Shown here: piece by piece, positions 1 through 28,594 of the stretch | How the letters are laid out: the number at the start of each line of letters is the position of its first letter | Numbering within the stretch: the first letter of the stretch is position 1 | Assembly (NCBI RefSeq): GCF_003611635.1 | Contig: NZ_RAVZ01000039.1 | Location: 1 to 40,315, forward strand | Direction of reading: 5' to 3' | DNA from: Corallococcus terminator | GTDB lineage: Bacteria > Myxococcota > Myxococcia > Myxococcales > Myxococcaceae | Length of the DNA: 40,315 nucleotides | Notes under the pieces: model-generated | The model's input: the letters and a program-made list of their open reading frames with translations, nothing else | Told to the model about the DNA's origin: nothing | The model's database searches: none | Made by a program: the position numbers and the translations under genes

Positions 1-24
1 CCCCCGTTCTCCAAGGCGCCTCCC

Positions 25-2118: not shown

Positions 2119-2207
2119 TGCAGGGGATGCAATGGGGGGACGGCGCCGGCCGTAGGCATGGCATGCCGTCCCCCTTCCGCATCTTCCATTTCACGGAGGC
2201 TTCCACC

Positions 2208-2738: not shown

Positions 2739-2760
2739 GCCGGGTTGAGGGCAGCCCCCA

Positions 2761-3402: not shown

Positions 3403-3505
3403 ATCCACCTCCTGGTGCCCCACGCTAATCACGGGAGCGGTGGAGCCCACGGGGTGGACCGGGGTTTGTCTCGGGGATGTTCGCTGGACGCCCAATCGCC
3501 CCTGC

Positions 3506-3548
3506 GACCCCGGGGTTGGTGGGGTTCGTCCCTGCCATTCCCAGATTC
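3506..3548 (+). promoter_or_regulatory. 43-bp 5' element shared by the two cold-shock genes (copy 1)
   Basis: This stretch aligns without gaps to 4912-4954, with about 30 of 43 positions identical, starting GACCCC and ending TTCCCAGATTC. Both copies lie directly upstream of cold-shock-domain genes. Here only 6 bases separate the element from the ATG at 3555, and no Shine-Dalgarno sequence is visible. It may be a common promoter or leader; which is not decidable by eye. Confidence 0.45.
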
Positions 3549-3554
3549 CGTGCG

Positions 3555-3791
3555 ATGCGAAGACGAACGGGCATCGTGCAGTGGTTCAACCTCGCGATGG
3601 GCTTTGGCTTCATTGCTCCCGACCGCGGGGGGCGTGCGCACGTCGTCGTGCTCCGGGAAGACATCGAAGCGGACGGCGACCCGGTCCTGACCCGGGGCCA
3701 GGCGGTCTCCTTCGAGTACTTCACGGGCCGCCAGGGGCCACGGGCGATCCACGTCCGGCCGCTGGAGTCTTCCCTGGCCGCGGATGACTGA
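3555..3791 (+). CDS. Divergent cold-shock-domain protein
   Basis: A 78-residue protein covering a single cold-shock (OB-fold) domain. The start TGIVQWFNLAMGFGFIAPD matches the Csp pattern, with RNP1 written MGFGFI instead of KGFGFI. RNP2, normally VFVHF, has become AHVVVL, so two aromatic RNA-stacking residues are missing. Nucleic-acid binding is therefore probably altered compared with the standard protein at 5003-5206. The ATG at 3555 matches the usual Csp N-terminus; upstream in-frame sequence looks non-coding. No ribosome-binding site is visible. It diverges from the cysteine hydrolase, with 152 bp between the starts, and converges on the WD40 gene. Confidence 0.75.
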   Translation: MRRRTGIVQWFNLAMGFGFIAPDRGGRAHVVVLREDIEADGDPVLTRGQAVSFEYFTGRQGPRAIHVRPLESSLAADD

Positions 3792-3862
3792 ACTCCAGGA
3801 TGAGTGGGCCCGGCCAAAGGGGCGGGATGGCAACGCATCCATCACAGTCCACCGACGGTGGC

Positions 3863-4843
3863 TCAGCCCTTTCGGGGCTCGACGACGCCCCAGACTCCGA
3901 CCTTGCCGTCGTCCATGCCCCAGCTCACGCAGCGCCCGTCGGGAGAGAACGTCACGGAGCTGCCCTGCAGGTCGTCCAGGTCCGAATAGGCGAAGAGCTT
4001 TTGCCCGTCGTGGACGTTCAGCACCACGAAGGCGCTCGTGTCCGGGCTGGCCGCGATCAGGGAGCCCGCCGGGTTGAATTCCAACTGGAGGACTCCCGAA
4101 CCCGGTCCTGTCAGCACTCGCACGACGTCGAGTGAGGGCAGGCTCAGGAACAGCAGCTCCCCCGCCGTGTTCGCGGCGATGAGCTGGTCTCCTGAGGGGA
4201 CGAACGCCACGGTCCAGATGCGAGAGGACTCGAAGGAGCGACTGCCCACCAGCTTCCCGGTCTTCGCCTCCCAGAGGCGGAGTGACGCGAGCGTCACCGC
4301 GCCCTCCCGCTCCTCGGCGGCCCCCGCGGCGGCGAAGGCGCCATCGGGTGAGAGCGCACAGCCATAGAGATACATGCGCTCATCCCGGCGCCAGGTCTGC
4401 CAGCCGCGCCGCAGATCCCAGAGCAGGACGCGCCCTGCCGCTCCCGTGAGCAGCACTCGCGTCCCATCCCATGACAGACACGCGCCGCAGACGGACATCC
4501 CTGTCGTCACCGTGGACAGCAACGCACCGTCGGTGACCGACCACGTCTGCAGGGCCCCCCGGACCGTCACGGACAGGAGGGTCTGGGAATCAGGCAGGAA
4601 CCACGCCGCCACGCCACCGGCCAGGGGGCGCGTGAAGAGCGGAGCGTTCCCCTCCGCATCCAGGTCCCACCAACGCAGTTGAGCCTCACCCCGGTTCCGG
4701 ACCGACAACAGGAAGCGCGATGACGCGTCCCAGCCCAGCCCCTGTCGCAGGGCGTGCGGAGAGCGGTCCGGCTCACCCAGGGTCCTCGACAGGGACAGAC
4801 TCCGTGCGGTGTCGGGGGTCAGGAGGGGGGAAGGCACGCGCAT
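3863..4843 (-). CDS. WD40-repeat beta-propeller protein
   Basis: A 326-residue protein made of WD40-like blades. Repeated units with structural Asp and terminal Trp-Asp or equivalent are seen ([39 protein letters not shown]), with intervening phrases such as [10 protein letters not shown] and [11 protein letters not shown]. Six or seven blades fit the length. No signal peptide or membrane segment is evident, so a cytosolic scaffold is likely; partner unknown. The ATG at 4843 has no good ribosome-binding site. It lies between the two cold-shock genes in the opposite orientation, sharing a 159-bp divergent intergenic region with the second one. No catalytic domain is fused to it. Confidence 0.8.
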
Positions 4844-4911
4844 TCACGGACAGGATACGGGATCCGCCCCGAGCAGGGCATGCGGACCTGGCCGCGCCCG
4901 CCGCCCCCCGC

Positions 4912-4954
4912 GACCCCAGGTCGGGATGGCTCCCTTCCCTCCGTTCCCAGATTC
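4912..4954 (+). promoter_or_regulatory. 43-bp 5' element shared by the two cold-shock genes (copy 2)
   Basis: Ungapped counterpart of 3506-3548 (about 30/43 identical; the first six and last eleven bases match exactly). Here it ends 48 bases before the ATG of the standard cold-shock gene, leaving room for a leader that contains a hairpin and a Shine-Dalgarno sequence. It is probably a common promoter or post-transcriptional element inherited by duplication. Confidence 0.45.
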
Positions 4955-4961
4955 AAGAACA

Positions 4962-4985
4962 CCGCCTGGATTTTCCCAGGGGCGG
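4962..4985 (+). promoter_or_regulatory. Leader hairpin just upstream of the cold-shock gene
   Basis: CCGCCTGG (4962-4969) can pair with CCAGGGGCGG (4976-4985), leaving a loop of ATTTTC and a two-G bulge. The hairpin ends 5 bases before the AAGGA Shine-Dalgarno at 4991-4995. It could modulate translation with temperature, as leaders of other csp mRNAs do, but this is inference. Confidence 0.4.
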
Positions 4986-5002
4986 CTCACAAGGACGGCG
5001 AC

Positions 5003-5206
5003 ATGGCGACGGGAGTCGTGAAGTGGTTCAACGCGGACAAGGGTTTTGGCTTCATCACCCCGGATGACGGAGGTGCGGACGTGTTCGCTCACTTCTCCGC
5101 CATCCAGACGGACGGCTACAGGTCCCTGGAGGAGAACCAGCGGGTCGAATTCGATGTCACGCAGGGGCAGAAGGGACCGCAGGCGGCGAACATCCGGCCG
5201 CTGTAG
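5003..5206 (+). CDS. Cold-shock protein, CspA family
   Basis: A 67-residue canonical cold-shock domain protein: [20 protein letters not shown] carries RNP1 (KGFGFI), and DVFAHFSAI carries RNP2 (VFAHF, Ala for the usual Val). It binds single-stranded RNA/DNA and acts as an RNA chaperone. The ATG at 5003 follows AAGGA with a 7-base gap. An upstream in-frame extension to 4754 would run through the divergent promoter region and is rejected. The 5' region resembles that of the other cold-shock gene at 3555. It is likely expressed alone; a short stem-loop follows the stop codon. Confidence 0.93.
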
Positions 5207-5214
5207 CAAGGCGC

Positions 5215-5277
5215 CGTGTGGGCTCACACGAAGGAGGGCGGGCACGACCCAGGGCGTCACCCTGGCGCACCCTGGGT
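5215..5277 (+). other. Stem-loop and alternative hairpins between csp and the SRPBCC gene
   Basis: CGTGTG/CACACG (5215-5230) forms a small stem-loop 8 bases after the csp stop. Further on, ACCCAGGG (5247-5254) can pair either with CCCTGG (5260-5265) or with CCCTGGGT (5270-5277), giving mutually exclusive hairpins. There is no U tract. The first may slow decay or aid termination of the csp mRNA; the role of the second set is unknown. Confidence 0.3.
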
Positions 5278-5377
5278 GGTGCCTCCTTCCGAATCCAGGT
5301 GGGGGGCTTGAGCGCCGGAGGACGGAGGGCCTAAGACGCCTGCGCCCCTTCCCGGGGCTGTCGTTCCGAGGACACCC

Positions 5378-6058
5378 ATGCTCAAGAAGATCGCCATTGG
5401 CCTTGCCGCCGCGCTGGTGCTGCTGCTCGCCTTCATCGCCACCCGCCCCGACACCTTCACGCTGTCGCGCACCGCCACGGTGCCGGGCACGCCGGACGTC
5501 GCCTTCGCGCTGGTGAACGACTTCCACCAGTGGAACCAGTGGTCTCCGTGGGACAACCTGGATCCGAACCTGAAGCGCGTCTTCGGCGGCGCGGAGTCGG
5601 GCACCGGGGCCACCTACGCGTGGACGGGCAACGACGATGTGGGCGAAGGCCGGATGACCAACGAGGAAAGCCGCGCGAACGAGTCCGTCCGCATCAAGCT
5701 GGAGTTCATCAAGCCCTTCGCCGCCACCAGCACCACGACGTTCACGTTCAAGCCCGTGCAGGACGGCACCGCCGTCACCTGGACCATGACCGGTGAGAAC
5801 GGCTTCATGAGCAAGGCGTTCTCGGTCTTCATCGACATGGACAAGATGGTCGGCAAGGACTTCGACAAGGGCCTCGCCAGCATGCAGGCCGCCGCCAAGG
5901 TCGAGGTCGCCAGGCGCGCGGAGGCCGAAGCCGTCCGCAAGCAGGCCGAGGCGAAGGCCGCCGAGGAAGCCGCCGCTGCCGCCGCTGCTGCCGCCGCCGC
6001 CGCCGCCGCCGCCGCGCCCACCGAGGGCGCTCCCGCCGTGGCCGTGCCCACGCCGTAG
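5378..6058 (+). CDS. Membrane-anchored SRPBCC (START/polyketide-cyclase-like) protein with polyalanine tail
   Basis: A 226-residue protein. Residues 1-25 form one hydrophobic segment (LKKIAIGLAAALVLLLAFIA) acting as an N-terminal anchor. Residues 30-165 match the SRPBCC helix-grip fold: TVPGTPDVAFALVNDFHQWNQWSPWDN, then GTGATYAWTG and TAVTWTMTGEN, as in polyketide-cyclase/dehydrase-like proteins that bind hydrophobic ligands. Residues 166-200 are a charged Ala/Glu/Lys helix, followed by 16 consecutive Ala and a Pro-rich end. The tail probably makes a rigid helix in the periplasm. The ATG at 5378 has only a weak GAGGACA-like site upstream. Ligand unknown. A strong intrinsic terminator follows 27 bp after the stop. 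Confidence 0.8.
   Translation: MLKKIAIGLAAALVLLLAFIATRPDTFTLSRTATVPGTPDVAFALVNDFHQWNQWSPWDNLDPNLKRVFGGAESGTGATYAWTGNDDVGEGRMTNEESRANESVRIKLEFIKPFAATSTTTFTFKPVQDGTAVTWTMTGENGFMSKAFSVFIDMDKMVGKDFDKGLASMQAAAKVEVARRAEAEAVRKQAEAKAAEEAAAAAAAAAAAAAAAAPTEGAPAVAVPTP
5969..6016 (+). repeat. Polyalanine GCC-rich trinucleotide run
   Basis: Sixteen consecutive alanine codons, twelve of them GCC, with three GCT and a final GCG. It encodes the Ala run in the tail of the SRPBCC protein and may vary in length by slippage. Confidence 0.85.
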
Positions 6059-6085
6059 TCCCCACGCCAATCCCTTGCGGTTCCC

Positions 6086-6125
6086 GGCCCCTTGTTGCCT
6101 CCCAGGCAACAGGGGCCTTCTTTTT
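6086..6125 (+). terminator. Rho-independent terminator of the SRPBCC gene
   Basis: GGCCCCTTGTTGCCT pairs perfectly with AGGCAACAGGGGCC around a very short loop, followed by TTCTTTTTC. It is a textbook intrinsic terminator on the plus strand, 27 bp after the stop codon at 6058. Confidence 0.9.
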
Positions 6126-6215
6126 CAAGACAATCTGTCATTGCACGGCCAGGGGGTCGCACCGGGAATCACCCATGGTATTTGTTCTGCCTCTTCGACA
6201 CTTCGAGGTCTGGCA

Positions 6216-8699
6216 ATGCCTGTGTTTCATGGAGCCTCCCGGCTCGCGCTGTGCCTGCTCACGTTCATCCTCGCCTGCGGTTCCACCGAACCTGATCCGA
6301 CGCCTGGAGAGGAGGACGAAAGCGACCAGGTGGCCGCGCTCACCCTCACGCCGAACGGGGCCACGCTCCTGGTGGGCGAATCCCTGGCGCTGGGGGCGCA
6401 GGCGTTCGACGCCACCGGCCGCGTGCTCAAGAACGTCAAGGTGACCTGGTCCTCCTACCTGCCCGAGTACGTCAAGGTGACCGACGGCCGGCTGGAAGGC
6501 GTGGCCACGGGCGGGTCGGTCATCACCGCCAGGGTCGGGTCGGTGAGCGCGACCCTGTCGGTGCTCGTGACGCCGGGCGATGCCTCCGGGCGTTCGAGCG
6601 ACGAGGTCCTGGCGTCCGCGCGTGAGGCCGGTCTCATCAACGACGAGGAACTGCTGGCCTATCGGGTGTACGCCGCGTTCAGCGACCCCCGCCTGCCCAT
6701 CCAGTACAAGGCCCGCGTCGAGCCGGGGTTCGACGCCACGTCGCTCGAAGAGTTGCGCGAGCGCTTCGACGACCTCTCCGCGCCGATGCAGCAGGCGCTC
6801 GGGATGTACCTGTTGCGCCCGGACGACCCGGGAAGCTGGCTCAACGCGCCCATGCCCGACGCCCGGCTGAGCAGCATGGCGCGACCCTCCTGCCGCCCCA
6901 GCGGCGCCCATTGGGACTACCAGTCCAAGACGTTCGCGAAGGTGAGGGTCTGGTACCAGTTCCAATACGCGGGTCAGCGCGAGCAGGCCGAGATCCTCGA
7001 CGCGGCGGTGGAGAAGGAGATCTGGCCGAAGCTGATGGCGCTGGGGCTCAAGGAGCCGCTCACCGACGAGGCCTACGGCGGCTGCAACGGGGGGAGCTCC
7101 CAGATTGACATCTACCTGGTCGCAAACATGTCCGCCCCGGGGTTGACCGTCCCGGAGGGCTTCGACAACACACAGGCAGCCACCTACATCCTGCTGTCGG
7201 GCAAACTTGCCGATGTCGACCCCAACGACCCGAAGAAGATCACGGACGCGACGAGGCTCAAGGGCGCCGCGGTGCATGAGTTGATGCACGCCATCCAGTG
7301 GTCCTACAAGACGAAGGACTGGCAGACCCGCTACGGATGGATCCGCGATGCGACCGCGAACTGGGCCATCGACCACGTGTATGGACAGACATCTCAGCTT
7401 GAGCACGAATACGCCGACTGCTTCATGAACACCCCGGCCCTGTCCCTGGAGAACCGCACCCAGGGCCACTGCACCAAGCAGGACTCGAAGGTCGAACGCG
7501 ACTACGGCGCCTACCTGTTCTTCCAATACCTGGCGAAGAAGCACAGCCCAGCCGTCGTGGTGGCGGCGCTCGAGAAGCTGACCACGGAGACCTCCAGCCT
7601 CACCGCGGTGGATTCCGTCGTGCCCGGCAAGCTGGAGAAGGTCTGGCCGGAGTTCGCGAAGGCGCTCTGGAACCAGGCGCCCATCGACACCAAGGGTGAG
7701 TCCTTCAAGGTGTGGGACAAACTCACGGAAAAGGTGAAGTTCAACTACTTCAGCGGCGATCTGGCCGGCGCGCCCGAGCACAAGGCAGAGCTCCAGGACG
7801 AACTGGAAAATCTGGCCAATCGCTACCACCACTACACGTTCAGCGACCCGAACACGCGCTCCATACTTTTCCACAACGGGTGGTTCAAGAACATCACCGA
7901 GTCGAAGGACCCGGTGAAGGTGCTCGCGCTCTGGAACGACGCGAGCGGGCAGTGGCACGAGGAGGACTGGAGCGAATACGAATACGTGGGCCTCTGCCGC
8001 GACATGAAGTCGCAGCGGGTGCAGGACCTGATCATCATCACCAGCAACGCGAAGTTCGCACCCGGCGGCGGCGGGAGCCTGAAGGCGGCGGAGAAGCCGT
8101 ACATCAAGCGCAGCAACGTGGGCTGCTGGAAGTACAAGGGCACCTCGAAGGCTGTCCTGGTGGATCCGAGCTGGTCGGGCCGGGGAAAGATCATCGACGC
8201 GAACCTGGAGTACCAGGTGCTGGGGGCCTTCGCGACTGCGAACTATGAGCATCCGCTCCTTCCGCACACGAAGCGGCTGGGGGCCTTCATGATCATGCCG
8301 CCCAGCGGCGACTTCACGCTCGACATCAGCTACGGGTTCGGAGGGTGCAACTACACGCACGGGCCCACCAAGTACTCGCTGGGGCCCTCGGGCGGGGCGA
8401 TGTTGATGAACCCCTTCAATGAATTGAAGTCACCGGATCCCGACACCCAGGCCTGGCTGTCGCACGCATCGCGCGCGTACAGATCGGCGCTCGGCGACGG
8501 ACGCATCGTGAGCGTCGCCGTCAGTGGTAGGGACTGCCATGGACCGGAGCTGGATGCGCCCGGGAACATCCTCTTCACGGACTCGGGTGAACCCACGGCC
8601 ACACCGCAGCTCGTGAAGCCGAATGGCGAGCTGTCCGGGACGATCCTCCTGGAGGGCATCACCTTCAGTTGGACGCTGCAACCGCAGCTCGAACCCTGA
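6216..8699 (+). CDS. Lipoprotein with BIG2 Ig-like domain and HEXXH putative metallopeptidase domain
   Basis: An 827-residue protein. The ATG at 6216 is chosen because GAGG lies 7 bases upstream and it opens a lipoprotein signal with lipobox ILAC (Cys at about residue 20). Residues about 38-120 resemble a bacterial Ig-like (BIG2) domain (LTLTPNGATLLVGESLALG, then GVATGGSVITARVGS). The central part contains GAAVHELMHAIQWSY: His354-Glu355-x-x-His358, a zinc-peptidase signature. Glu396 or Glu398 in the following LEHEYADCF is a possible third ligand. The C-terminal 300 residues look like beta-rich domains. I do not recognise a named peptidase family. Likely role: surface or exported protease of a predatory bacterium. 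Its 3' end overlaps the converging M1-like gene. Confidence 0.72.
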   Translation: MPVFHGASRLALCLLTFILACGSTEPDPTPGEEDESDQVAALTLTPNGATLLVGESLALGAQAFDATGRVLKNVKVTWSSYLPEYVKVTDGRLEGVATGGSVITARVGSVSATLSVLVTPGDASGRSSDEVLASAREAGLINDEELLAYRVYAAFSDPRLPIQYKARVEPGFDATSLEELRERFDDLSAPMQQALGMYLLRPDDPGSWLNAPMPDARLSSMARPSCRPSGAHWDYQSKTFAKVRVWYQFQYAGQREQAEILDAAVEKEIWPKLMALGLKEPLTDEAYGGCNGGSSQIDIYLVANMSAPGLTVPEGFDNTQAATYILLSGKLADVDPNDPKKITDATRLKGAAVHELMHAIQWSYKTKDWQTRYGWIRDATANWAIDHVYGQTSQLEHEYADCFMNTPALSLENRTQGHCTKQDSKVERDYGAYLFFQYLAKKHSPAVVVAALEKLTTETSSLTAVDSVVPGKLEKVWPEFAKALWNQAPIDTKGESFKVWDKLTEKVKFNYFSGDLAGAPEHKAELQDELENLANRYHHYTFSDPNTRSILFHNGWFKNITESKDPVKVLALWNDASGQWHEEDWSEYEYVGLCRDMKSQRVQDLIIITSNAKFAPGGGGSLKAAEKPYIKRSNVGCWKYKGTSKAVLVDPSWSGRGKIIDANLEYQVLGAFATANYEHPLLPHTKRLGAFMIMPPSGDFTLDISYGFGGCNYTHGPTKYSLGPSGGAMLMNPFNELKSPDPDTQAWLSHASRAYRSALGDGRIVSVAVSGRDCHGPELDAPGNILFTDSGEPTATPQLVKPNGELSGTILLEGITFSWTLQPQLEP

Positions 8700-10385
8700 G
8701 CCGGGTTGCTCCCGCAGGAGCCCCGCGCTCCTGCGGTTGACCAACCTGTTCCGGGGATCCACTTCTACCCGCCGGACGGTCCACGGCGGGAGCGGCACGG
8801 TGGCGCGCACCGTCGCGGACAAGGGCTCCAGCCCGTAGGAGACGGTGAAGCGCTGCCGCTGCTCCGGGGCATCCCCCTGGAGCTCCAGCTCCACCACGCA
8901 GGGATACACGGTGCCCGCGACCGTCCGCTGCGTCACGGTCAGCGTCAGCGCTTGCTCCTCCCGCCACTCCACCTGGAAGAAGGGCCAGTCCGGCTCCCCT
9001 GCCCCGTCCACCCAGGTCTCGAAGTAGCGCTGGAGACTGACGCCAGACGCCCCTTCGAGCGCGGCGCGAAGGTCCGCGATGCTCCGCGCTCCAGGTTCGG
9101 CCAGGAACACCTGGAGCGCGGCGAGCACCTGGGCCCGGCCCAGCAGGGACTCCAACTGCAAGAGGAGGATCATCGGCCCCGAGCCGTAGATGTCATTGGC
9201 GAAGGAGATGAAGGGCGGCGCCGGCACATCGCTCGGGCGCAGATGGTAGGAGGCCGTGCGGGCCAGCCGGTCCCAGTACGCGAGCGTGGAAGCCGCCTCC
9301 CCGTCCCGGTGCTCGTCCTCATAGACGTACGTGAGGTATTCGGCCACCGCCTCCTTCCAGGGATAGTCCCGGGCGCTGGCCAGCGTGGTCCGGTTGCCTG
9401 CCCACTGGTGCACCACCTCGTGCATCCACGTGTGCAGCGCCATGTTGGCGTAGACCTTCGGCAAGAGCGGCAGGTTGTCCCGCAGGACGATGTTGGCCGG
9501 ATGCTCCATCCCCAGCCACTCCGTGGGCGCCGCCGCCACGCGCAGCTCGGGGCCATACGGAAGCGGACCGAAGCGCGCCGTCATCCACCTCAAGAAATCC
9601 TCCACCACCGCCGCGTCCAGCGCGGGCCACAGCAGGCCCCCCGGAGCCTCGTAGAGGTCCACCCGGCCCACGTCCGAGTCCACCAGCCGCGTGCGCTTCC
9701 ACGCGGGATGGGAGGCCACCATGAAGGCCGAGTACGTGGGCGCCCGCGTTCCCAGCAGCTCGCAGCGGGTGTGGGTCTCATCCGGATGGGACAAGGTGCC
9801 CGGGCACAGCACCACCGCTCCGGGCGCGTGCGTCACCTCGAACGTGAAGTGCGAGAGACGGTCGGGCGCGTCGTCACAGGGGCCGAGGAAGTCGCACGAC
9901 TCCACCCAGCCCAGCAGGTACGAGAACACATCACCGTGGAGGTCGGGACGCCGGGAGAACCCCACCTGGGTGTACAGGTGCGTGGCCTCCGGGACGACGT
10001 AACGGCTGTCGATCCAAGGGGCACCTTCCAACAGCGACCGCCCGCAGACCTCCAGCGTCCCGTCCACCGTGCGCGTGCTCACCGCGGGCACGCCCTGCCA
10101 CCGCACGTCCGTCACCCCCTCCGGGGCCGGAATGGACAGACAGCCCTCCCGGGCCCCCTTCACGTCCAGCCACAGCCGGGAGGTGAGCTCGCGGGTCGTG
10201 AGATCGAACGCGAGGTCGTAGAGGTCCACCGCGTATGCCAGGGGAGGTCCATCCACGTCCTTGATGGGAGGCGGCGCGGGCGACTCGCACCCCAGCCCCA
10301 GGACGACCAGCAGCGACAGGACGCGGCGGAGCAGGGACAGGGGCACGCAACGGATACGGACCGGAGCCTCCCCACCGGTCGTCAC
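8430..10385 (-). CDS. M1-family (gluzincin) aminopeptidase-like exported protein
   Basis: The open frame gives 651 residues. Key M1 features are present: GMEHP (the GAMEN exopeptidase motif equivalent) and HEVVHQWAGN with zinc ligands His322, His326 and Glu345, exactly 18 residues after the second His, in PWKEAVAEYLTY. An N-terminal hydrophobic stretch ending LGLGC suggests a lipoprotein, with a poor lipobox. Start is uncertain: GTG at 10385 has no ribosome-binding site; GTG at 10346 gives a more normal signal length. The family-like sequence ends around VRRVEVDPRNRLV, near 8745; the last 270 bp (8430-8699) read antisense into the coding end of the neighbouring gene and look unlike protein. 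Either the stop has been lost, or a frameshift hides an end near 8665. An upstream terminator separates it from the GH3 gene. Confidence 0.75.
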   Translation of the reverse strand: MTTGGEAPVRIRCVPLSLLRRVLSLLVVLGLGCESPAPPPIKDVDGPPLAYAVDLYDLAFDLTTRELTSRLWLDVKGAREGCLSIPAPEGVTDVRWQGVPAVSTRTVDGTLEVCGRSLLEGAPWIDSRYVVPEATHLYTQVGFSRRPDLHGDVFSYLLGWVESCDFLGPCDDAPDRLSHFTFEVTHAPGAVVLCPGTLSHPDETHTRCELLGTRAPTYSAFMVASHPAWKRTRLVDSDVGRVDLYEAPGGLLWPALDAAVVEDFLRWMTARFGPLPYGPELRVAAAPTEWLGMEHPANIVLRDNLPLLPKVYANMALHTWMHEVVHQWAGNRTTLASARDYPWKEAVAEYLTYVYEDEHRDGEAASTLAYWDRLARTASYHLRPSDVPAPPFISFANDIYGSGPMILLLQLESLLGRAQVLAALQVFLAEPGARSIADLRAALEGASGVSLQRYFETWVDGAGEPDWPFFQVEWREEQALTLTVTQRTVAGTVYPCVVELELQGDAPEQRQRFTVSYGLEPLSATVRATVPLPPWTVRRVEVDPRNRLVNRRSAGLLREQPGSGFELRLQRPTEGDALQEDRPGQLAIRLHELRCGRGFTRVREEDVPGRIQLRSMAVPTTDGDAHDASVAERRSVRARCVRQPGLGVGIR

Positions 10386-10446: not shown

Positions 10447-13400
10447 CTACTTCGTGAAGGTGATGGGCCCGGAAGACAGCGTGGTGTTGTTCGCGCCGTC
10501 CACCGCGCGCACGCGCCACGTGTGCGTCCCCGTGCCCAGCCCGTTCACCGTCGTCTGCTCGGTGCCCACGCCGTACACCTCGAACTCCCACAGCGAGTAG
10601 CCGTAGGCCGTCGCACGCTGCACACCGCGCATGCGCACGTAGCGGCCCACGCCCGTGAGGCCCGTCCAGTCGTCGATGCCACCGTCGCCGGTGTCCACCG
10701 TCCTCAGGGCCACCCAGTTGGTCGCCCCGTCCAGCGACGTCTCCAGGACGTAGCGCCGGCCGTACGCGGCCTCCCAGTTCAGCAGGATGCGCTTGATGCT
10801 GTAGATGGCGCCCAGGTCCACCGTGATGGAGTCGGTGTCACCCGTCGTCGCCGTGCCGACGCTCGACCAACGCGTCGTCAGGCTGCCGTCCACCGCGTCG
10901 TTCGGGCTGCCGAACTCGGACGAGGTGGCCGCCACGTTCTTGCCCCGCGCCAGGTTCGTCCCGGCAGGGGTCGCCGCGCTGCGGAGGATGGTCGGCGTGC
11001 GGTCCGCCCCATCCACGATGAGCACGTACTCCGACACGCCCGCGCCCACGTCCGTGGTCTGCTCCCAGATGAAGCGCGTGGCCGTGCCCGGCACCGCCTG
11101 GCCCGCCGACGGCGACAGCGCCGCGAAGGCCGCCGGAGGCGTCGTGTCGTTCAGCGTGAAGGTGAACGTGGGCGACTGCGTCACCCCGTTCGCCCAGTTG
11201 AACGCCTTGACGAACCAGGTGTGCGTCCCGTTCGCCAGCTTCAGGCTCTCCAGCGGAGCGGACGGCGTCTTCGTGATCGCCACCGGCGCCGGGTTGCCGT
11301 CGATGAAGACCTCGTAGCGCTGGATGCCCGTCTGCGGATCGCTGCTGGCGTTCCAGGTGAACGCCGTACGCGTGCCGGTGATGACCAGGTTGTTCGCCGG
11401 CGTCAGCAGGCTGAACGCCACCGGCGCCGTCGCATCCGTCAGGCCGAAGCCCTGGATGCCCGCGCCGTACTGGAACAGCGGGTTGCCGTAGATGGGCTCG
11501 ATGTGCTCGCCCGCGGCGATCTTGGCGCGGATCGTCGCCCGCTCCGCCGCCGTGGCACCCAGGTCGTACGGCAGATCCCAGCGCTCCAACTGGTCGTTCT
11601 CCACGTCGGTGCCAATCTGGTTCATGGCACGCGGCAGTTGCCACGGCGTCTTGCCGCGAGGCAGCACGTCGCCGAACAGCACGTCCGCCACCGCGAAGCC
11701 GCCCATGTCACCGGGGCGGTAGGCGATGAGGAACGCGTTGGAGATGGGCATCACGTTCGTCAGGACATACGGCCGCGGCATGATCATCACCGTGGTCGTG
11801 GGGATGCCCCGCGACCTGAAGCTGTTGATGACGCCGAACTGGTCGCCCCACTTCGCGTCGTGGGCCGGGCCAATCGGATCTCCAGGCAGGTACGGCTTCT
11901 CCTTGTCCCACTCCGTGCCGTGCGTGAAGTAGCTCTCACCCACCACCACGATGGCCGCATCCGGCGTCACGCCCGCGGGGGCGGCATCCTTGTAGACCGT
12001 GAGGCCCGCCGCTTCCGCGCGCGCCTTCACCGCCGTGTAGATGGTCGGGTCGCCGAACTCGTAGCCGTGGAAGTCCGAACGCCAGGTCACCATGCAGGAC
12101 ATGTCGTCCGCGCGGGGACCCGCGATGACGATCGTCCTCCCCGCCGGCAGCCGGATGGGCAGCGCGCCGTCGTTCTTGAGCAGCGTCATCGCGCCTTGCG
12201 AAGCCCGGCGGACGGCGGCCTTGCTGGTAGCGGTGTGCCACTCGGAGGTGCCCGCGGGGCCGTTCTTGTACGGGTCCTCGAAGATGCCCAGGCGGAACTT
12301 CAGGTCGAGGATGCGGCGCACCGAATCGTTGATGCGGGCGAGCGGCACCTCGTTCTCGAAGTTGGCCATCGCGGACGGCGTCGCGCCGCCCATGACATCC
12401 GAACCCGCCGTGGCGGACCGCACCCACGCGCCGGAAGGCAGCCAGTCCGAACAGATGACGCCGTCGTAGTTCAGCTTCGTGCGCAGGTAGTTGAGGATGC
12501 CCGGGTTGTCACCCGCGCCGTACCCCTCCGGCCCCAGCAGCCAGCTTCCGGCGTAGCCCGGCATGATGCCGCTGGTGCCCGCCTCGATGGCCGCGTGCCA
12601 CGGACGCATGTGGTAGTGGATCGTGGTGCCGTCGTAGGTGATGCCCGCCTCACCGCCAGCGCCCTGGCCCGGCCAGTGCTTCGTCGTCACCCAGATGGAG
12701 TTCGGGTTCACTTCCGGGCCGCCCTGGAGACCGGCGATCAGCGCGCGGGTGATGCCCGACGCCAGCTCCGCGTCCTCGCCGTTGCCTTCCTGCGTGCGAG
12801 GATAGAGGACCTTGGTGTTCACCTCCGCCAGCGGAGACAGCGTGCCCCGGCTGCCAATGGCGATCTGCTCGCGGCGCTGGATGTCACCCATCTCATAGAC
12901 GGTGTCCAGGTCGCGCGAAGCGGCGAGCGCCGGCTGCGTGGGCCAGCTCGTCTTGTAGCCGTGGATGGAGTCACCCGCGTCGATGTGCGGGATGCCCAGC
13001 CGCGTGGCTGCGGACGCCCTCTGGAACATGGGGATGTCCGTGGGGGACAGCGGCCCCATCTGGAAGCCCGCCAGCGGGTACTCCTTGGCGTCGTAGAACA
13101 TCTGCATGGCCTTCTCATGCAGCGTCATGCGGCCCATCAGGTCGCTCACGCGCACGGAGATGGGGTTGCGCCAGTTCTCGTACGGCTCGATGGTCCCGTT
13201 CTTGTTCAGGTCGCGCGAGCCATTGATGATGTTGACGCCGTCCGCCTGCGTCTCCACCGTCGGCAGGTACACGCTGAAGTTGCCGATGTCGGAGCGCGGC
13301 GTGCTGCCCGACAGCGTCGCCACCACGTACCACTTGTACGTCCAGCGATCCGGCAGGTCCTCCGTGAACGTGAAGGACGTGCCCATCTGCGACGCCACCT

Positions 13401-14949
13401 GCGTGTAGCGCTCCAACAGGCTGCCCGGCGCCATCCAGTCGTAGTCGTTGCGCGACAGGTTGACGTAGAGCCTGTAGTTGGTCGCGCCCGTGACGGGGGC
13501 CCACGTCAGGGTGGGACGGCGCGTCGTGGTCACCATCGTATTGTTCGTCGGCGTCACCAGCCGGAACGAACCCGTCACCGGCAGCGGCGCGGGCGCCACG
13601 TAGGGATCCGGGATGATGGTCGGATCGCGAGGGTCCGTGGGGCCATTGCCCGTGGAGAAGATTTCCACGTTCCAGTCCGCGCCCTGCACCGCCAGCGCGC
13701 TGACGGACTGCCCGCGCTGCTGGCTGCCATTGTAGTCCACCACCGCCAGGCGGATGTCCGTGTTGGGCTGGGTGGGTGAGAACTGGTTCTTCGACAGCGT
13801 CACCGTCGTGTTGGGCGGGAACGTGAGCTGGTAGGTGAACGGCCCAGGCGGGTTGCGCACGGACGGCGTGGTGTTGCCCTCCTCCGGCACCGGCGTGACG
13901 CTGATGGGCGCGGGCGACACGTTGATCTTCGCGTACGCCAGCTCAGGGAAGTTCAGCTTGATGGTTTGGTTGGTGGTCTGCGTCGGCGGAGGGTTGGTGC
14001 CGCCGGACTGGTAGACCTCAAAGGACCACAGCGAGTAGCCGTAGCCAGTGCCGCGCTCCGTGCCGCGCATGCGGATGTAGCGGTAGGTGCCGGAGACGGG
14101 AATCTCCCGACGGCCGATCGCGCCGTTGGTCACCGTGTTGAGGGTGACCCACGTGGTGTCGTTGTTGGAGCCGTCAATCGTATACGTCTTGCCGTAGGCG
14201 CCTTCCCAGTCCAGCACCACCTTGCCCACCACCTGGGAGGACCCCAGGTCCACGCGGATCCACTGGGGATCCACCTCGCCGACGGAGGCCCAGCGCGTCG
14301 TGCCCAGGCCGTCGAACGCGAAGCCCGGCAGCAGGTACTCGGAGTTGCCCTCCACGCTGGACGCCGTGGCCGGCTTGTTCAGCGCCAGGTCCGTGGTGAC
14401 GGGCGGAGGCGTGGTGCCCCCCGTCTCGTAGATGGCGAACTCCCAGAGGGAATAGCCGAACGCGCCCGAACGGGTGACGCCCTGCATGCGGACGTAGCGG
14501 CCGGTGGTCCCCGCCGGCAGGGACAGGTCATCCACCGCGCCGTCGCCGTTGGTCACGGTGAGCGCGTCGGTGAACGTCGTGCCGTTGGCCGACACCTGGA
14601 TCTTGTAACCCGTGGCGTAGCCCGCCTCCCAGGTCAGCACCACGCGCGAAATCGTGCGCGTCTGCCCCAGGTCCACGGTGATCCATTCATTGTTCGTGAA
14701 GGCACTGCCCCAGCGCGTGCCGCCATTGCCGTCCACCGCGTACTGACCCAGGAAGATGTCTTCCGCGGAAGAGGTGGTGGTGGGCCGGTTCAACGCCACG
14801 TTCGTCTGGGCCTGGGCCGGTGAAGCGGCCAGCACGGACACCAGCATCGCGACCGCGGCGAAGGCCTTCTTCAACCAGACACCGGGTGGTGCTTCGAGCA
14901 GAACTGGCTTCGCGCCCGTTCTTGACAACTCGGCTGAATATTCACACAT
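10447..14949 (-). CDS. Secreted multidomain GH3 beta-glucosidase/exo-glucanase with three discoidin (F5/8C) domains
   Basis: A 1500-residue enzyme. ATG at 14949 with AAGGAG 10 bases upstream; signal peptide with a long n-region, cleavage likely after AQA at residue 47 (a GTG at 14880 is the alternative start). Order: discoidin domains at about 50-178 and 190-312 (each ending GYSLWxF), a linker, an Fn3-like domain (about 440-560), GH3 catalytic modules (about 570-1175), an Ig-like repeat (1178-1266), and a second Ig-like repeat interrupted by a third discoidin domain (1328-1461). GH3 motifs: Lys757-His758 in TKHWPGQG and the nucleophile Asp835 in GVICSDWLP. GH3 enzymes release glucose from non-reducing ends of beta-glucans; discoidin domains bind polysaccharide. 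It is 215 bp from the upstream genes and may have its own promoter. It ends at a strong terminator. Confidence 0.9.
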   Translation of the reverse strand: MCEYSAELSRTGAKPVLLEAPPGVWLKKAFAAVAMLVSVLAASPAQAQTNVALNRPTTTSSAEDIFLGQYAVDGNGGTRWGSAFTNNEWITVDLGQTRTISRVVLTWEAGYATGYKIQVSANGTTFTDALTVTNGDGAVDDLSLPAGTTGRYVRMQGVTRSGAFGYSLWEFAIYETGGTTPPPVTTDLALNKPATASSVEGNSEYLLPGFAFDGLGTTRWASVGEVDPQWIRVDLGSSQVVGKVVLDWEGAYGKTYTIDGSNNDTTWVTLNTVTNGAIGRREIPVSGTYRYIRMRGTERGTGYGYSLWSFEVYQSGGTNPPPTQTTNQTIKLNFPELAYAKINVSPAPISVTPVPEEGNTTPSVRNPPGPFTYQLTFPPNTTVTLSKNQFSPTQPNTDIRLAVVDYNGSQQRGQSVSALAVQGADWNVEIFSTGNGPTDPRDPTIIPDPYVAPAPLPVTGSFRLVTPTNNTMVTTTRRPTLTWAPVTGATNYRLYVNLSRNDYDWMAPGSLLERYTQVASQMGTSFTFTEDLPDRWTYKWYVVATLSGSTPRSDIGNFSVYLPTVETQADGVNIINGSRDLNKNGTIEPYENWRNPISVRVSDLMGRMTLHEKAMQMFYDAKEYPLAGFQMGPLSPTDIPMFQRASAATRLGIPHIDAGDSIHGYKTSWPTQPALAASRDLDTVYEMGDIQRREQIAIGSRGTLSPLAEVNTKVLYPRTQEGNGEDAELASGITRALIAGLQGGPEVNPNSIWVTTKHWPGQGAGGEAGITYDGTTIHYHMRPWHAAIEAGTSGIMPGYAGSWLLGPEGYGAGDNPGILNYLRTKLNYDGVICSDWLPSGAWVRSATAGSDVMGGATPSAMANFENEVPLARINDSVRRILDLKFRLGIFEDPYKNGPAGTSEWHTATSKAAVRRASQGAMTLLKNDGALPIRLPAGRTIVIAGPRADDMSCMVTWRSDFHGYEFGDPTIYTAVKARAEAAGLTVYKDAAPAGVTPDAAIVVVGESYFTHGTEWDKEKPYLPGDPIGPAHDAKWGDQFGVINSFRSRGIPTTTVMIMPRPYVLTNVMPISNAFLIAYRPGDMGGFAVADVLFGDVLPRGKTPWQLPRAMNQIGTDVENDQLERWDLPYDLGATAAERATIRAKIAAGEHIEPIYGNPLFQYGAGIQGFGLTDATAPVAFSLLTPANNLVITGTRTAFTWNASSDPQTGIQRYEVFIDGNPAPVAITKTPSAPLESLKLANGTHTWFVKAFNWANGVTQSPTFTFTLNDTTPPAAFAALSPSAGQAVPGTATRFIWEQTTDVGAGVSEYVLIVDGADRTPTILRSAATPAGTNLARGKNVAATSSEFGSPNDAVDGSLTTRWSSVGTATTGDTDSITVDLGAIYSIKRILLNWEAAYGRRYVLETSLDGATNWVALRTVDTGDGGIDDWTGLTGVGRYVRMRGVQRATAYGYSLWEFEVYGVGTEQTTVNGLGTGTHTWRVRAVDGANNTTLSSGPITFTK

Positions 14950-15064
14950 TGGGGGACGACTCCTTGAGTAGGAACACCGTGAGGCATGCGTCTGGACGCA
15001 CGACCAGGACGCGCGTCAAACGCAGGGGGACTGCCTGGCTGGAGCAACTGCTTCCCTGCCCCGA

Positions 15065-15087
15065 CGGCGCCGGACGCGGGGGCGCCG
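15065..15087. other. GC-rich hairpin between the lipoprotein genes and the GH3 gene
   Basis: CGGCGCC (15065-15071) and GGCGCCG (15081-15087) are perfect inverted arms. Together with the hairpin at 15115 it lies in the 215-bp gap between coupled genes and the GH3 gene and may adjust mRNA levels across the junction. Confidence 0.35.
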
Positions 15088-15114
15088 GCGACGTCAAGAC
15101 AAGGCTCGGGCGTT

Positions 15115-15138
15115 CCGGCTGTCATCCTCGACAGCCGG
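15115..15138 (-). terminator. Hairpin after the last coupled lipoprotein gene (terminator-like, no U tract)
   Basis: CCGGCTGTC and GACAGCCGG are perfect 9-bp inverted arms around a 6-base loop, 26 bp downstream of the stop at 15165 on the minus strand. No T run follows, so it may be a weak terminator or an mRNA-stabilising hairpin rather than a full stop. Confidence 0.45.
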
Positions 15139-15164
15139 CCCACCCTCCTGGCACTGCGTCCTGC

Positions 15165-15845
15165 CTAGTTCGCGGTGAAGTACAAGTTGTCGAGCAGGAG
15201 AGACTGACCGGCGGCACCACCTTCAGCGGCGAAGGTGAACGGTGACGACACGGCGTTGAGCTTCAGGCCCGCCGCGGTGAAGTCCGCGATGGGGATGGCC
15301 AGGTGATGCCACGCACCGTCATTCACGTAGCCGTATTTGGAGGCGGCGAGCGGATAGCCCTTCTCATCCGTCTTCACGCCGCTGGACATGCCGATCTTCA
15401 CGTTCGCGAAGGCGGCTTCCGAGGACTTCATGCTGACGTGGAGCGTCTTCCACGTGTCCAGGTTGTGCACGTTGGTCCAGTGCACCCCGAAGCCCATCCA
15501 CGGCTTGCCGTTCTGGACGATCTTCGTGGCGAACTTGCCCTCCACGCGGTCCTCCACGGGGTCGAAGATGTCCTCCACGTAGACGGTGTTGTCGTAGAGG
15601 TAGAAGTTGGTGTCGACGTTGTCGAGCACCACCTCCTCGGAGTGGCCCGTCTCATAGAAGATGCCCACCATCAGGCGGCGCTGACCGTCCTCGAAGGGGA
15701 ACGGCCCGGGCAGGACCTCCTCCTCGGGGTCCGTCCCGCCGTCGTTGTTGTTCCCGATGGGGCCCTGGCCCGAGTAGTCCGCCGGGCCCGGATCCGGGCG
15801 GCAGGCGGACAGCATCAACAGCAAGCCCCACAACGGCTTCTTCAT
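15165..15845 (-). CDS. Lipoprotein with carbohydrate-binding-like beta-sandwich
   Basis: A 226-residue protein starting with a short lipoprotein signal (lipobox LSAC, Cys at about residue 15), then a 30-residue acidic/Gly-rich linker and one beta-rich domain (about 45-226). Its pattern resembles jelly-roll carbohydrate-binding modules: aromatic-rich strands (GFGVHWTNVHN), WHHLAIPIADF, and a final LLLDNLYF, like the last strand of many CBMs. The lipoprotein at 28595-29365 ends with a comparable strand (FFLDDIQW). It is the last member of the coupled gene series: its ATG overlaps the stop of the previous gene (ATGA). Likely a surface glycan-binding protein of the glucan locus. Function is inferred; no family is recognised with certainty. 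Confidence 0.65.
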   Translation of the reverse strand: MKKPLWGLLLMLSACRPDPGPADYSGQGPIGNNNDGGTDPEEEVLPGPFPFEDGQRRLMVGIFYETGHSEEVVLDNVDTNFYLYDNTVYVEDIFDPVEDRVEGKFATKIVQNGKPWMGFGVHWTNVHNLDTWKTLHVSMKSSEAAFANVKIGMSSGVKTDEKGYPLAASKYGYVNDGAWHHLAIPIADFTAAGLKLNAVSSPFTFAAEGGAAGQSLLLDNLYFTAN

Positions 15846-16396
15846 GGCTTCACCGCCCGGTCCGCACCACTGGAGGTCTTCACCATCACCCAGCCGCCCG
15901 TCACCGTGCCGCCCAGCTCCACGACGCCCTTGTACGCGGGCGTCACCAGGTCATAGGCGATGGTGCCGGACGCGTCGTACGTCACCGCGTCCGGGAAGTT
16001 GTCGAGCACGGACTGGAAGGCCTTCACCGCCATCTCCCGCGTCTGCGGAAGGCTGGCCTGATCCGCCAGGCCCCGCTGGTAGATGGCCGCGAGCTGCACG
16101 CCCACGTAGTACTGCGCCTCGCCGTACGGCCCCTGGGCCAGGATGGTGGCCCAGGAATAGAAGCCCGCCACGGGGCTCGCGCTGGCCTGGATGTCCCACT
16201 TCGTCTCGGTGCCCACGCCCGACAACCGGAAGGGGTTGTACGGGTCGTCCAGCACGGACGTGTTCGGGTAGACGCCCATCAGGGGGTCCGTGACCACGAA
16301 GGTCATGTCCTCCAGCGAGCGGCCGTAGATGATCGTCGGATCCTCGTAGCAGCCGGACAGCGACGCCACGGCGGCCACCAGCAGAGCAGTCCTCAT
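15842..16396 (-). CDS. Lipoprotein of unknown function in the glucan locus
   Basis: A 184-residue protein. The ATG at 16396 (GAGGGA 9 bases upstream) begins a short signal with lipobox LSGC (Cys at about residue 16). The body contains a helical part with GEAQYYVGVQLAAIYQRGL and REMAVKAFQSVLDNFPDA, suggestive of TPR-like helices, and a C-terminal beta-like segment. I do not recognise the family. It starts 13 bp after the stop of the glycosidase-barrel gene and overlaps the next lipoprotein gene by ATGA, so it is made from the same transcript. A partner of the outer-membrane barrel is a reasonable guess, by analogy with barrel/lipoprotein pairs, but nothing in the sequence proves it. Confidence 0.6.
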   Translation of the reverse strand: MRTALLVAAVASLSGCYEDPTIIYGRSLEDMTFVVTDPLMGVYPNTSVLDDPYNPFRLSGVGTETKWDIQASASPVAGFYSWATILAQGPYGEAQYYVGVQLAAIYQRGLADQASLPQTREMAVKAFQSVLDNFPDAVTYDASGTIAYDLVTPAYKGVVELGGTVTGGWVMVKTSSGADRAVKP

Positions 16397-16409
16397 GATG
16401 CGTCGTCCC

Positions 16410-19400
16410 TCAGAGAGAAAGGATGGCATACGCGCCCACCTCGTATTCGCGGCCCTTCAAGCCCTCGGTGATGCCCCGGTCGTTGAGGCCCTCCGAGTAC
16501 TCATCCAGCATGCGGACCAGGCCGCGCAGACCGAAGCGCGTGGACACCGCGCCCAGCACCGGCTTCTTCAACCCGTAGGACAGGTCCCCGCCAAGCTGCA
16601 CCGGGTAGGTGAGGTTGAAGACGCGGTGGTAGTCGTACGGACCCCAGTCGTTGAAGCGCAACTGCGTCGCGAGCAGCAGCGTGTCGTAGAGCACGGAGCC
16701 GTCCAGGCCGAAGCGGTGGATCTGCCGGTCGTCCTCGCCCGCGGACTGGTTGCTGCCCACGAACGCCGTGCCGAACAGGCGCAGGCGCTGGCTGGGATTG
16801 CCCACCATGCGCAGCGTCGTCTCCCACTCGTCGCGGGCGACGGGCGAGCGGCCGAAGGCGATGGTGCTGCCATCCGCGAGGATGGCGATGCTGGCGTCAC
16901 GCGACGTGGGCTGGTGGCGGTAGACGATGTCCAGGCCCGCCGCGAACGGCGCGTCCTCGCGCAGATCCCTATCCCACGCCCAGAACCAGGTGCCGGGCGT
17001 CGGGTCGAAGGTGATGAGCAGCTCCGCGCCCAGTGTCTCGCGGTTGTCCAACACGGTGAAGGCATCCACCAGCACACTGCGCGGCTTCACGCCCGCGAAG
17101 TACTGGCCCGTGGCGGGGTCGAACGCGTCGTTGATGGTCGGGTTCGGCCCGACGAGGGGCTTCTGGTAGAGCAGGTTCGGGGAGACCTGGATCATGCCGA
17201 ACTGGAGCGCGGCGCCCACCTGGCCGGCGTAGTGGTTGCCTCGGCCGCTCTCGCGCAGGCTCCAGCCGGTGATGATGTTGGCCTGCTCCGGTCCGCTGTC
17301 CGCGACGAGGCCGCGGATGGAGGACTGGAGGAGCCAGCGCACCATGCCCATGTCGTAGGTGAGCCGCGCCTTGGCGCCCAGGGTGTCCAGGAACTGCACC
17401 TGATCCTGGAGCACGTCGTAGCCGCTGTTGAGGTAGCTGGGCGCGTCCGCGGCCGCCTGCCGCGTATAGGTGAACGTCTCGCCGATGCGCTGGGGCGCGG
17501 AGAGCAGGCCGCCCACGTCCAGGACCATCTTGCCGGCGGCGTACTGGAAGTTCAGCGCCGTCCTGCGCGCGATGCGCTCACGCACCACGGAGGCGGTGCC
17601 GGACGAAGCGCCCTGCGCCAGGTCTTCCTGGTGCACCAGGGTGATGTTCACCGGGCCCACGTTGTTGCGGTACTTGGCCACGGCGGAGGGGTTGGCGCCC
17701 CAGTACAGCTCCGGGCCCACCGCCACCTTCAGGCCCTCCAGGTTGCGCTTGCCGCTGAACACCACGCCGAAGGGCGCGTTGCCGTTGTAGATGTCCAGGT
17801 TCGGCCCGTAGTTGGCCTCGCGGTAGAGGCCGAAGAAGTCGCCCTCCTCGCCCCAGTGGTAGTGGCCGGTGCGGTAGTAGCCCTCGAGCGCGAAGTCCGC
17901 CCGGTCCACCTTGAACTCCGCCTGGTAGAGCGCCAGCCTGTCCAGCGGGTTGTTGGACGTCCCCGGTGAGCCGGGGGTCGTGGGATTGCTGCCCGTGCCC
18001 GTGCCCGGCGCGGAGCGCGCGCCGCGGTTCTCGTAGAACAGGTTGTTGAGCCGGTTCTGCGCGACGTTGCCCACGACGTTGAACGACGCGCGACCGTAGA
18101 CGCCGCTGGTCGGCTGCACCGCCAGGTCGAAGTAGACGGACTGGGTGTGGTCCGCGGAGCTGCGGTTGGGCCGCACCGTCGCGATGCTGCCGCGCGACAG
18201 CGAGCTGTCCAGCAGCAGCCGCAGGTTGGACACCCGCACCGCGCTCAGCTCCTCCGTGCGCGCCAGCGCCACCGACGACGTGTAGCTGCTGGTGAGCGCG
18301 GAGGGACGGATGCCCGCGAAGAACTGGCGGATGGTGTCCGGGTTCGTCGTGGGCGCGTACGGATCCAACCGGAAGGCGGCCTGGAGCACGTAGTAGGCGG
18401 TGCGCGGCTGGATGCCGCTGATGCCGTTGTCGTCCGGCGGGCCCAGGGCCGCGATGCCGAACCACTCCTCGTTCATGTTGTTCTGGCCGGGGACGAAGTC
18501 GGACGTGTAGCCCCCGTTGGGCCAGGACGCGGTGGTGTCGTGGATGGAGAGGTTGGCCTCCTGGCCCATCTTCCACCAGCCGTCCACCCACTGGAACACG
18601 AAGCCGCCCACGGCCGTGCCCGACAGGCCCTGGCCGTAGCTCTCCAGGTAGATCTGCTCCCACTGCGTGCGCAGGTATTCGGCCTGCGCCACGTGGTCCT
18701 CGCGGCCCGCCTTGGCGTCGTACGCGTCCGCGCCGAACTCGGAGAAGAACACCGGCTTGTTGAGCTTCTGCTTCACCTCCGCGAACATGTCGCGCGCGGT
18801 GGCGCCCCGGTACACGTTCGTGCCCAGCACATCCAGGTCCTGGCAGTGCTTGGCGATGAGGTCGATGTACTGCAGGTCGCCGTTGGCGATGGACACGGGG
18901 TGGTTCGTGTCCCGCTTCTTCACCGTGCGCGTCGCTTCACCGTAGAGCGTGTACAACGACTCCGCGCGGGCGGCGTCCTCGTGGCCGGGCAGCGCCTCGA
19001 TTTCAAACGACGTCCAGTGCAGGCCGTAGTTGTTCTCGTTGCCCAGCAGCCACATCAGCACGCCGGGCACGTCGCGGTAGACTTCGACCTTCTGCGCCAG
19101 CGCGTCGAGGATGGCCTTGCGGTGCGCGGGGTTGGAGTAGTCGATGTTGGGGACCATCACCCCGTTGACGGCGTGGCCGTAGCGGCCCATCAGCGGGTTG
19201 AGCATCGTGTAGATGCCGTAGTTCCGGTAGATGTACTCGACCCACTGGGGCGGGATGTCGTCGAACTGGCGGATGGCGTTGATGCCCGCGTCGCGCAGCA
19301 GGCCCATCTCCTTGGCCAGCACCTGCTTGATGAAGTCCTCCGACTGCATCCAAAGCGAGTACCGGTAGTTCTCACCAATGGGCGTGTAGCCCCAGTTGAT

Positions 19401-24818: not shown

Positions 24819-24820
24819 GC

Positions 24821-28544: not shown

Positions 28545-28594
28545 CGTCCGCTCACGTTCTGTGTCTGGGTTCGCGCGTCACGCGCGGTGGGACG

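Follow-up and report, generated by a model that had tools for sequence, protein, structure and literature searches.

A CBM32 domain nested in a predicted split Ig-like domain at the C-terminal end of a GH3 protein from Corallococcus terminator

How is the C-terminal end of the GH3 protein of Corallococcus terminator built? An earlier note on this locus saw two Ig-like repeats at the end of the protein, the second broken by a full discoidin domain that would have arisen by internal duplication of the protein's own N-terminal discoidin domains. The question is whether a single Ig-like domain is encoded here in two pieces around a CBM32 domain (i.e. discoidin or F5/8 type C), where this CBM32 comes from and what it may do for the enzyme. 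In order to answer it, we analyzed the window, i.e. the whole stretch of 40,315 nucleotides in which the gene lies.

The GH3 protein and its domain order

Residues are counted from the first ATG of the frame (Table 1), and the true start of the protein may lie a little downstream of it. The hydrophobic N-terminus ends in ASPAQAQ and, judged by eye only, resembles a signal peptide; the enzyme is probably secreted. Pfam recognizes F5_F8_type_C in three stretches, with a whole-protein score of 198.9 bits (cut-off 28.2), and PF00933 (90 bits, cut-off 27) and PF01915 (78.3 bits, cut-off 31) place the protein in the GH3 family. Residues 832-836 read ICSDW, and the alignment pairs Asp835 with the Asp in the VISDW of 6jgg, an ExoI-type chain; we take this Asp of the SDW motif to be the GH3 catalytic nucleophile. 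The GH3 domains also align with those of solved beta-glucosidases and exo-glucanases (9ul7, 5m6g and barley ExoI), including the Asp of SDW (or TDW, SDY), and the phmmer matches to these chains are confined to the GH3 part. As to the general acid/base, two Glu residues of the GESYFTHGTEWDKEKP stretch (446 and 458 in A3 numbering) are the same in all 19 sequences compared, and the alignment with solved GH3s has gaps at this point. Against NF052331, the NCBI equivalog for exo-beta-1,3/1,6-glucosidase, the protein scores 153 bits where the cut-off is 1330; thus, it is not filed under that family and its substrate is a guess.

Table 1. Features of the window; residue numbers are those of the GH3 protein.
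Feature	Residues	Position	Strand	Basis or remark
GH3 protein	1500 aa from first ATG	10450..14949	minus	49 orthologues match residues 560-1500 throughout
N-terminal CBM32/discoidin domain 1	45-176	14422..14817	minus	Pfam
N-terminal CBM32/discoidin domain 2	183-315	14005..14403	minus	Pfam
GH3 catalytic domains	642-838 and 921-1119	11593..13026	minus	Glyco_hydro_3 (642-838), Glyco_hydro_3_C (921-1119)
First Ig-like domain, unsplit	1172-1267	11149..11436	minus	Pfam near-match, Ig1 profile, AlphaFold2
Split Ig-like domain, N half	1268-1326	10972..11148	minus	Ig1 profile (positions 1-57), AlphaFold2
Nested CBM32/discoidin domain	1327-1461 (core 1332-1459)	10567..10971	minus	Pfam, phmmer, VIA
Split Ig-like domain, C half	1462-1500	10450..10566	minus	Ig1 profile (positions 65-94), AlphaFold2
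Exop_C protein		15168-15845	minus	Exop_C 27.3 bits, cut-off 26.1
Small protein		15845-16429	minus	
GH2-type TIM barrel protein		16413-20864 (frame)	minus	
Opp-type ATPases/permeases and solute-binding protein (importer)		21084-26602	minus	
GH16 protein		26464-28137	minus	SKN1/KRE6-type match
Small protein		28598-29365	minus	

Ahead of the GH3 domains, an FN3/Ig-like stretch can be made out by eye at about residues 458-562. Residues 320-455 (positions 13585-13992) are without a Pfam match; they are 80% identical between the GH3 protein and five proteins from other myxobacterial genera, and 33% identical to the Cerasicoccus protein. This region is possibly an undescribed small beta domain. In the window, neither an RNA family at gathering score nor a tRNA was found.

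The two halves of the second Ig-like domain

The motifs by which the two repeats had been recognized are all present, in the stated order and in one open frame, namely: LLTPANN (1181-1187), YEVFIDG (1212-1218) and NGTHTWFVKAFNWANG (1240-1255) in the first repeat, and LSPSAGQ (1278-1284), YVLIVDG (1308-1314) and GTGTHTWRVRAVDGANN (1472-1488) in the second. The insert is a complete F5/8-C domain as had been described, with bounds that we place at residues 1327-1461 rather than 1328-1461. The span of DNA given for the arrangement (10447-11130) is somewhat short, since the split Ig-like domain begins at about 11148, slightly outside it, and the first Ig-like domain (11149-11436) lies wholly outside.

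Pfam's Ig model Big_7 matches the first repeat only, at 24.0 bits, just below the cut-off of 24.1. An Ig1 profile was built from the first Ig-like domain of 21 sequences and run against cut-out pieces of the second. The N half scores 35.6 bits over profile positions 1-57 and the C half 22.9 bits over positions 65-94, while the uncut sequence is matched in two pieces, i.e. 1-70 (32.7 bits, slightly into the insert) and 65-94 (17.1 bits). Once joined, the N and C halves give 60.0 bits in one stretch covering positions 1-94. It should be kept in mind that the halves joined in reversed order still reach 49.5 bits, yet as two stretches; thus, the total score alone is no proof of one domain. As controls, five composition shuffles score at most 1.9 bits and the nested CBM32 itself scores -0.7.

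AlphaFold2 was supplied with 21 aligned sequences, and five models were made, with mean pLDDT ranging from 72.6 to 87.2; the best has a mean pLDDT of 87.2 and a pTM of 0.79. In this model, the strands of the first Ig-like domain lie at model residues 17-19, 33-35, 45-52, 77-87, 92-94 and 98-102. Their counterparts in the second, paired by the register of the Ig1 profile alignment, follow in the same order at 113-115, 126-132, 141-148, 311-320, 325-327 and 332-335 and flank the insert on both sides; for the first-Ig strand 24-26 the counterpart is a single-residue bridge (121). The structure prediction proposed as a check in the earlier note puts strands of both halves in register with most first-Ig strands. 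A second Ig-like domain closed around the insert is supported by this predicted fold, as judged from register, pLDDT and sequence rather than from contacts. A larger model, of residues 560-1500, is poor (mean pLDDT 56, pTM 0.39) and too weak to place the tail.

The Ig profile was also scanned over 8 chosen genomes (E up to 1e-6), giving 40 matches: 8 to first Ig-like domains of the GH3 protein (positions 1-98), 8 to its second ones, which stop at positions 53-75, and 24 elsewhere. All 24 matches outside the GH3 gene continue past the split point, to positions 88-97. Thus, the same Ig-like domain exists without an insert, and among the 40 matches only the GH3 copy is interrupted. Taken together, the sequence and the predicted fold both describe a single Ig-like fold whose coding is broken by an inserted domain of ligand-binding type. 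CBM32 domains take up the Foldseek and VIA lists, with no Ig relative among the matches listed, so that these fold searches bear on the nested domain and not on the Ig-like one; similarly, the matches of the A2 profile to PDB sequences (25 sequences) are confined to the CBM32 part.

Distribution and relatives of the nested domain

In a scan of 195 Myxococcota genomes using residues 560-1500 as the query (query positions 1-941, E up to 1e-30), 51 genomes show a match, and in 49 of these it is unbroken over positions 1-941, insert included. The 49 orthologues represent six genera, all within the family of C. terminator itself; the nested domain is detected directly in 34 of them and is inferred from the unbroken match length in the other 15. 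The remaining two genomes match in the GH3 part only (31-33% identity). A set of 20 related loci includes Corallococcus, Myxococcus, Pyxidicoccus and Archangium as well as two Cerasicoccus species (Verrucomicrobiota). Eighteen of these loci overlap in species with the 49 orthologues, the other two being those of Cerasicoccus. Close relatives of the window are Corallococcus species, with up to 97% identity in the best segment. The two Cerasicoccus homologues are 50-52% identical and carry a CBM32 at the same place in the second Ig-like domain. In agreement with the earlier description of two terminal Ig-like repeats, the second broken by a complete discoidin domain, the complementary halves and the predicted fold are thus joined by an insertion point common to two phyla.

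Two irregular records turned up among the sequences. BNCN01000005.1, titled Comamonas sp. KCTC 72670, contains the full myxobacterial gene at 77% identity, and this genome is probably mislabelled or contaminated. In one further genome (G389), the GH3 gene lies in two frames, with the break between the second N-terminal CBM32 and the rest, i.e. a frameshift or an assembly error.

GH3 homologues without the insert, against which the earlier note had proposed to align the protein, were sought, and none was found among the 49 full matches from the 195 Myxococcota genomes or among the 20 loci. A sample of 286 genomes from the Cerasicoccus class yielded a full match in Cerasicoccus alone (G059), and GH3-only matches at 31-36% identity (E up to 1e-40) in 7 others. 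The next GH3s in the searched genomes, at 28-36% identity, match the GH3 part only; hence, the arrival of the insert is not bracketed by them. The GH3 core is 58% identical between the protein and that of Cerasicoccus, and nothing was found from there down to about 36%. This gap, the 58% core and the patchy spread over two phyla suggest that the whole gene moved laterally between the phyla.

Domain identities were compared within the myxobacteria, using the GH3 protein and five of the nine available proteins from other genera, and against Cerasicoccus. Within the myxobacteria the nested domain (73%) is better kept than the N-terminal domains (59% and 65%), and the GH3 core stands at 82%; against Cerasicoccus the order is reversed, with 39% for the nested domain and 50% for each N-terminal one. 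The junction directly before the nested domain is the least conserved part (20%). The CBM32-in-Ig arrangement is old and well kept.

The closest solved relatives of the nested domain are the chitosan-binding CBM32s of the Paenibacillus sp. IK-5 chitosanase/glucanase (4zxe, 4zy9 and 4zz5). 4zy9 matches it with a phmmer E of 2.2e-29, and the model of the nested domain superposes on 4zy9 with a VIA Z of 22.7 and an rmsd of 1.3 over 129 residues (50% identity); this galactose-binding-like fold match and a Pfam match above the cut-off assign the domain to CBM32 (F5/8 type C). The claim that the insert is closely similar to the protein's own N-terminal discoidin domains is weakly supported, as its identity to these is 44% and 47%, vs. 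52% and 47% to the two IK-5 modules. It should be added that the IK-5 modules were solved separately and form a tandem pair in their enzyme, as far as the available part of that report goes; versatility for chitin, chitosan and cellulose is mentioned there (PMC12154041).

Equivalents of Glu14, Arg31, Trp60 and Glu61 of the IK-5 modules are identical in 35 of 35 distinct myxobacterial nested domains. Three of these, i.e. Glu14, Arg31 and Glu61, we take to be sugar contacts in the IK-5 modules. The kept positions 14, 31 and 61 are suggestive of sugar binding by the nested domain. Arg31 and Glu61 are constant in every CBM32 copy examined and may therefore serve the fold rather than the sugar, and the nested domain does not retain the Glu or Tyr that the IK-5 modules have at position 36. 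In the Cerasicoccus nested domain there are five substitutions, namely: Glu14 to Lys, Arg109 to Asn, Tyr121 to Phe, Trp124 to Tyr and Phe126 to Val.

In a tree of 55 chosen CBM32 domains, which includes 39 myxobacterial copies and 15 nested copies from both phyla, all 15 nested copies lie on one side of a branch with support 85/96, which is below the star threshold. The branch that leads to the Cerasicoccus nested domain is long (2.15 changes per column), and the position of this domain inside the nested group is weak (29/72). Furthermore, the tree puts the first N-terminal domain of Cerasicoccus with the first domains of the myxobacteria, and a common history may thus extend to the N-terminal part. 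An independent insertion in Cerasicoccus is not rejected by the tree of CBM32s alone, and it is solely the shared insertion point that speaks for one insertion event in both phyla.

Origin, role and gene surroundings

The end of the protein might be read as two separate, complete domains, one after the other; what looks like the second Ig half would then be a linker or another small domain. Pfam does recognize no Ig in the second repeat, and the reversed halves do keep most of their total score; against this, the C half matches its own part of the profile by itself, neither half contains the part of the other, most strands are in register in the AlphaFold2 model and the matches outside the GH3 gene all run on past the split point, so that we regard two complete domains as very improbable. 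A different matter is whether the insert is a recent copy of an N-terminal discoidin domain placed into the Ig loop, as the earlier note had supposed. All three domains belong to one broad type of CBM32, with mutual identities of 43-47%, as such a duplication would have it. However, a tree in which N-terminal and nested copies from four Corallococcus proteins form one group has an lnL lower by 158.8 (AU test, p 1.5e-66), which rules out a recent event, and the nested copies of both phyla share one side of a branch in the tree; we give a recent duplication next to no credence. The test gives no rejection when all 39 myxobacterial copies are placed together (p 0.46), nor when this is done with the 10 copies from both Cerasicoccus GH3 proteins (p 0.27). 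The phylogeny of the discoidin domains, likewise proposed as a check, thus rejects a recent duplication and leaves the deep groupings standing; a very old internal duplication may have taken place.

More weight falls on the reading that the nested domain is mainly structural, i.e. that it braces the end of the protein or shields it from proteases, with a vestigial sugar site. The NnGH92 alpha-1,2-mannosidase (PDB 7nsn), a multi-domain glycoside hydrolase, also has, in its crystal structure, a CBM32 (86-222) inserted in a loop of an all-beta domain (42-77 and 259-395), and in the available part of that work its CBM32s were important for the integrity of the enzyme and hardly affected yeast mannan binding, which favours a structural role in NnGH92 (PMC10167667). 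The Cerasicoccus nested domain is altered at Glu14 and at four others of the twelve positions examined, which are otherwise largely constant, and the nested domain is less conserved between the phyla than are the N-terminal ones. Within the myxobacteria, on the other hand, it is the better kept of the three, with the IK-5 equivalents 14, 31, 60 and 61 unchanged in all distinct copies, and we consider a mainly structural role unlikely, if worth keeping in mind.

In the reading that we favour, and think rather probable, the split Ig-like domain holds out a carbohydrate-binding module, and this module keeps an exo-glycosidase attached to polymeric glucan or to chitosan-bearing walls. The C-terminal end of the enzyme would then be a "split domain" unit, with the first Ig-like domain as a spacer. 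In the strand order of the model, the gap in the second Ig-like domain would follow strand four or five and precede the last strands, at about the D-E turn. The termini of CBM32 domains neighbour each other, which makes them suited to insertion in a loop. The nested CBM32 would bud sideways from this gap, with its two ends next to each other at the junction and the putative sugar site farthest away from it. All three CBM32s would help to hold the exo-acting enzyme to its substrate, either an insoluble glucan or the chitosan-bearing wall of a fungus or microbe, from whose chain ends the GH3 active site would remove sugars.

This reading of the tail, as a spacer Ig and a split Ig that projects a CBM32, draws on NnGH92 and on the RTX adhesins. 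In the latter, i.e. AhLap of Aeromonas hydrophila, FrhA of Vibrio cholerae and MpIBP, the available accounts likewise describe a carbohydrate-binding module that buds from an Ig-like domain whose sequence is discontinuous, with neighbouring unsplit Ig-like domains as in the GH3 protein, and with the ligand site held outward as its role (PMC12077191, PMC10865825). As far as these accounts go, the carriers differ, being large surface adhesins in the RTX systems vs. a 1500-residue GH3 protein here, and so do the modules, which are PA14-type or fucose-binding lectin-like in the adhesins vs. CBM32 here. No RTX family is found among the Pfam matches of the GH3 protein (E up to 1); given this and its GH3 carrier, it would work like a split-Ig adhesin and is not filed as an RTX adhesin. 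NnGH92 differs in belonging to GH92 and in having an N-terminal "CBM-like" host domain, no Ig-like domain being named among its five in the accessible text (PMC10167667).

Searches of open-licence PubMed Central papers for a glycoside hydrolase whose Ig-like domain holds a CBM turned up no report of one, and the accessible part of PMC8211771 does not describe nesting. We regard the CBM32-bearing split Ig-like domain of this GH3 protein as a new combination of a kind already known. The occurrence of the same design in an enzyme family of predatory bacteria, and in two phyla, suggests a use in all cases where a sugar-binding module needs holding off the protein axis. Split domains have been proposed as a mark for recognizing the ligand-binding modules of RTX adhesins (PMC12077191). 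A search rule for overlooked enzyme modules would run: half an Ig profile, an insert and the other half. The arrangement also offers enzyme engineers a natural, durable CBM-in-Ig graft to copy. In its widest and rather doubtful form, the proposal would be that a split Ig with a budding ligand module is a general architecture of secreted enzymes that degrade polysaccharides, unnoticed so far because profile libraries do not recognize split Ig domains; that within this GH3 subfamily the arrangement and the enzyme passed between Myxococcota and Verrucomicrobiota as a single unit; and that the nested module feeds chain ends to the active site.

The putative glucan or chitosan target is deduced from the gene surroundings. 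The run of genes on the minus strand from 10450 to 29365, which begins with the GH3 gene, resembles a glucan-use cluster (Table 1). Its GH16 protein scores far under the best equivalog (88 of 700 bits), and the binding protein of the importer is nearest to nickel and peptide types, with every score below the cut-off. The Exop_C gene, the small gene next to it and the GH2-type gene accompany the GH3 gene in 9 of the 20 loci, all from Corallococcus or a near MAG; the flanks of the loci extend at most 6 kb, and the importer and GH16 genes lie beyond them, outside this comparison. According to the available part of one report, myxobacterial glucanases serve predation on fungi and oomycetes (PMC10875029). 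Within the same flanks, a frame of 873 aa at 6075-8699 that is without a Pfam match is found in only 4 of the 20 loci, at 65-80% identity.

In one Cerasicoccus locus (L051), a GH81 gene encoding three CBM32s (2-4318, its start cut off) adjoins the GH3 gene (4351-9594); GH81 is a beta-1,3-glucanase family. The Cerasicoccus GH3 protein itself carries five CBM32s, the fourth of which sits in a linker that is free of CBM32s in the Corallococcus protein.
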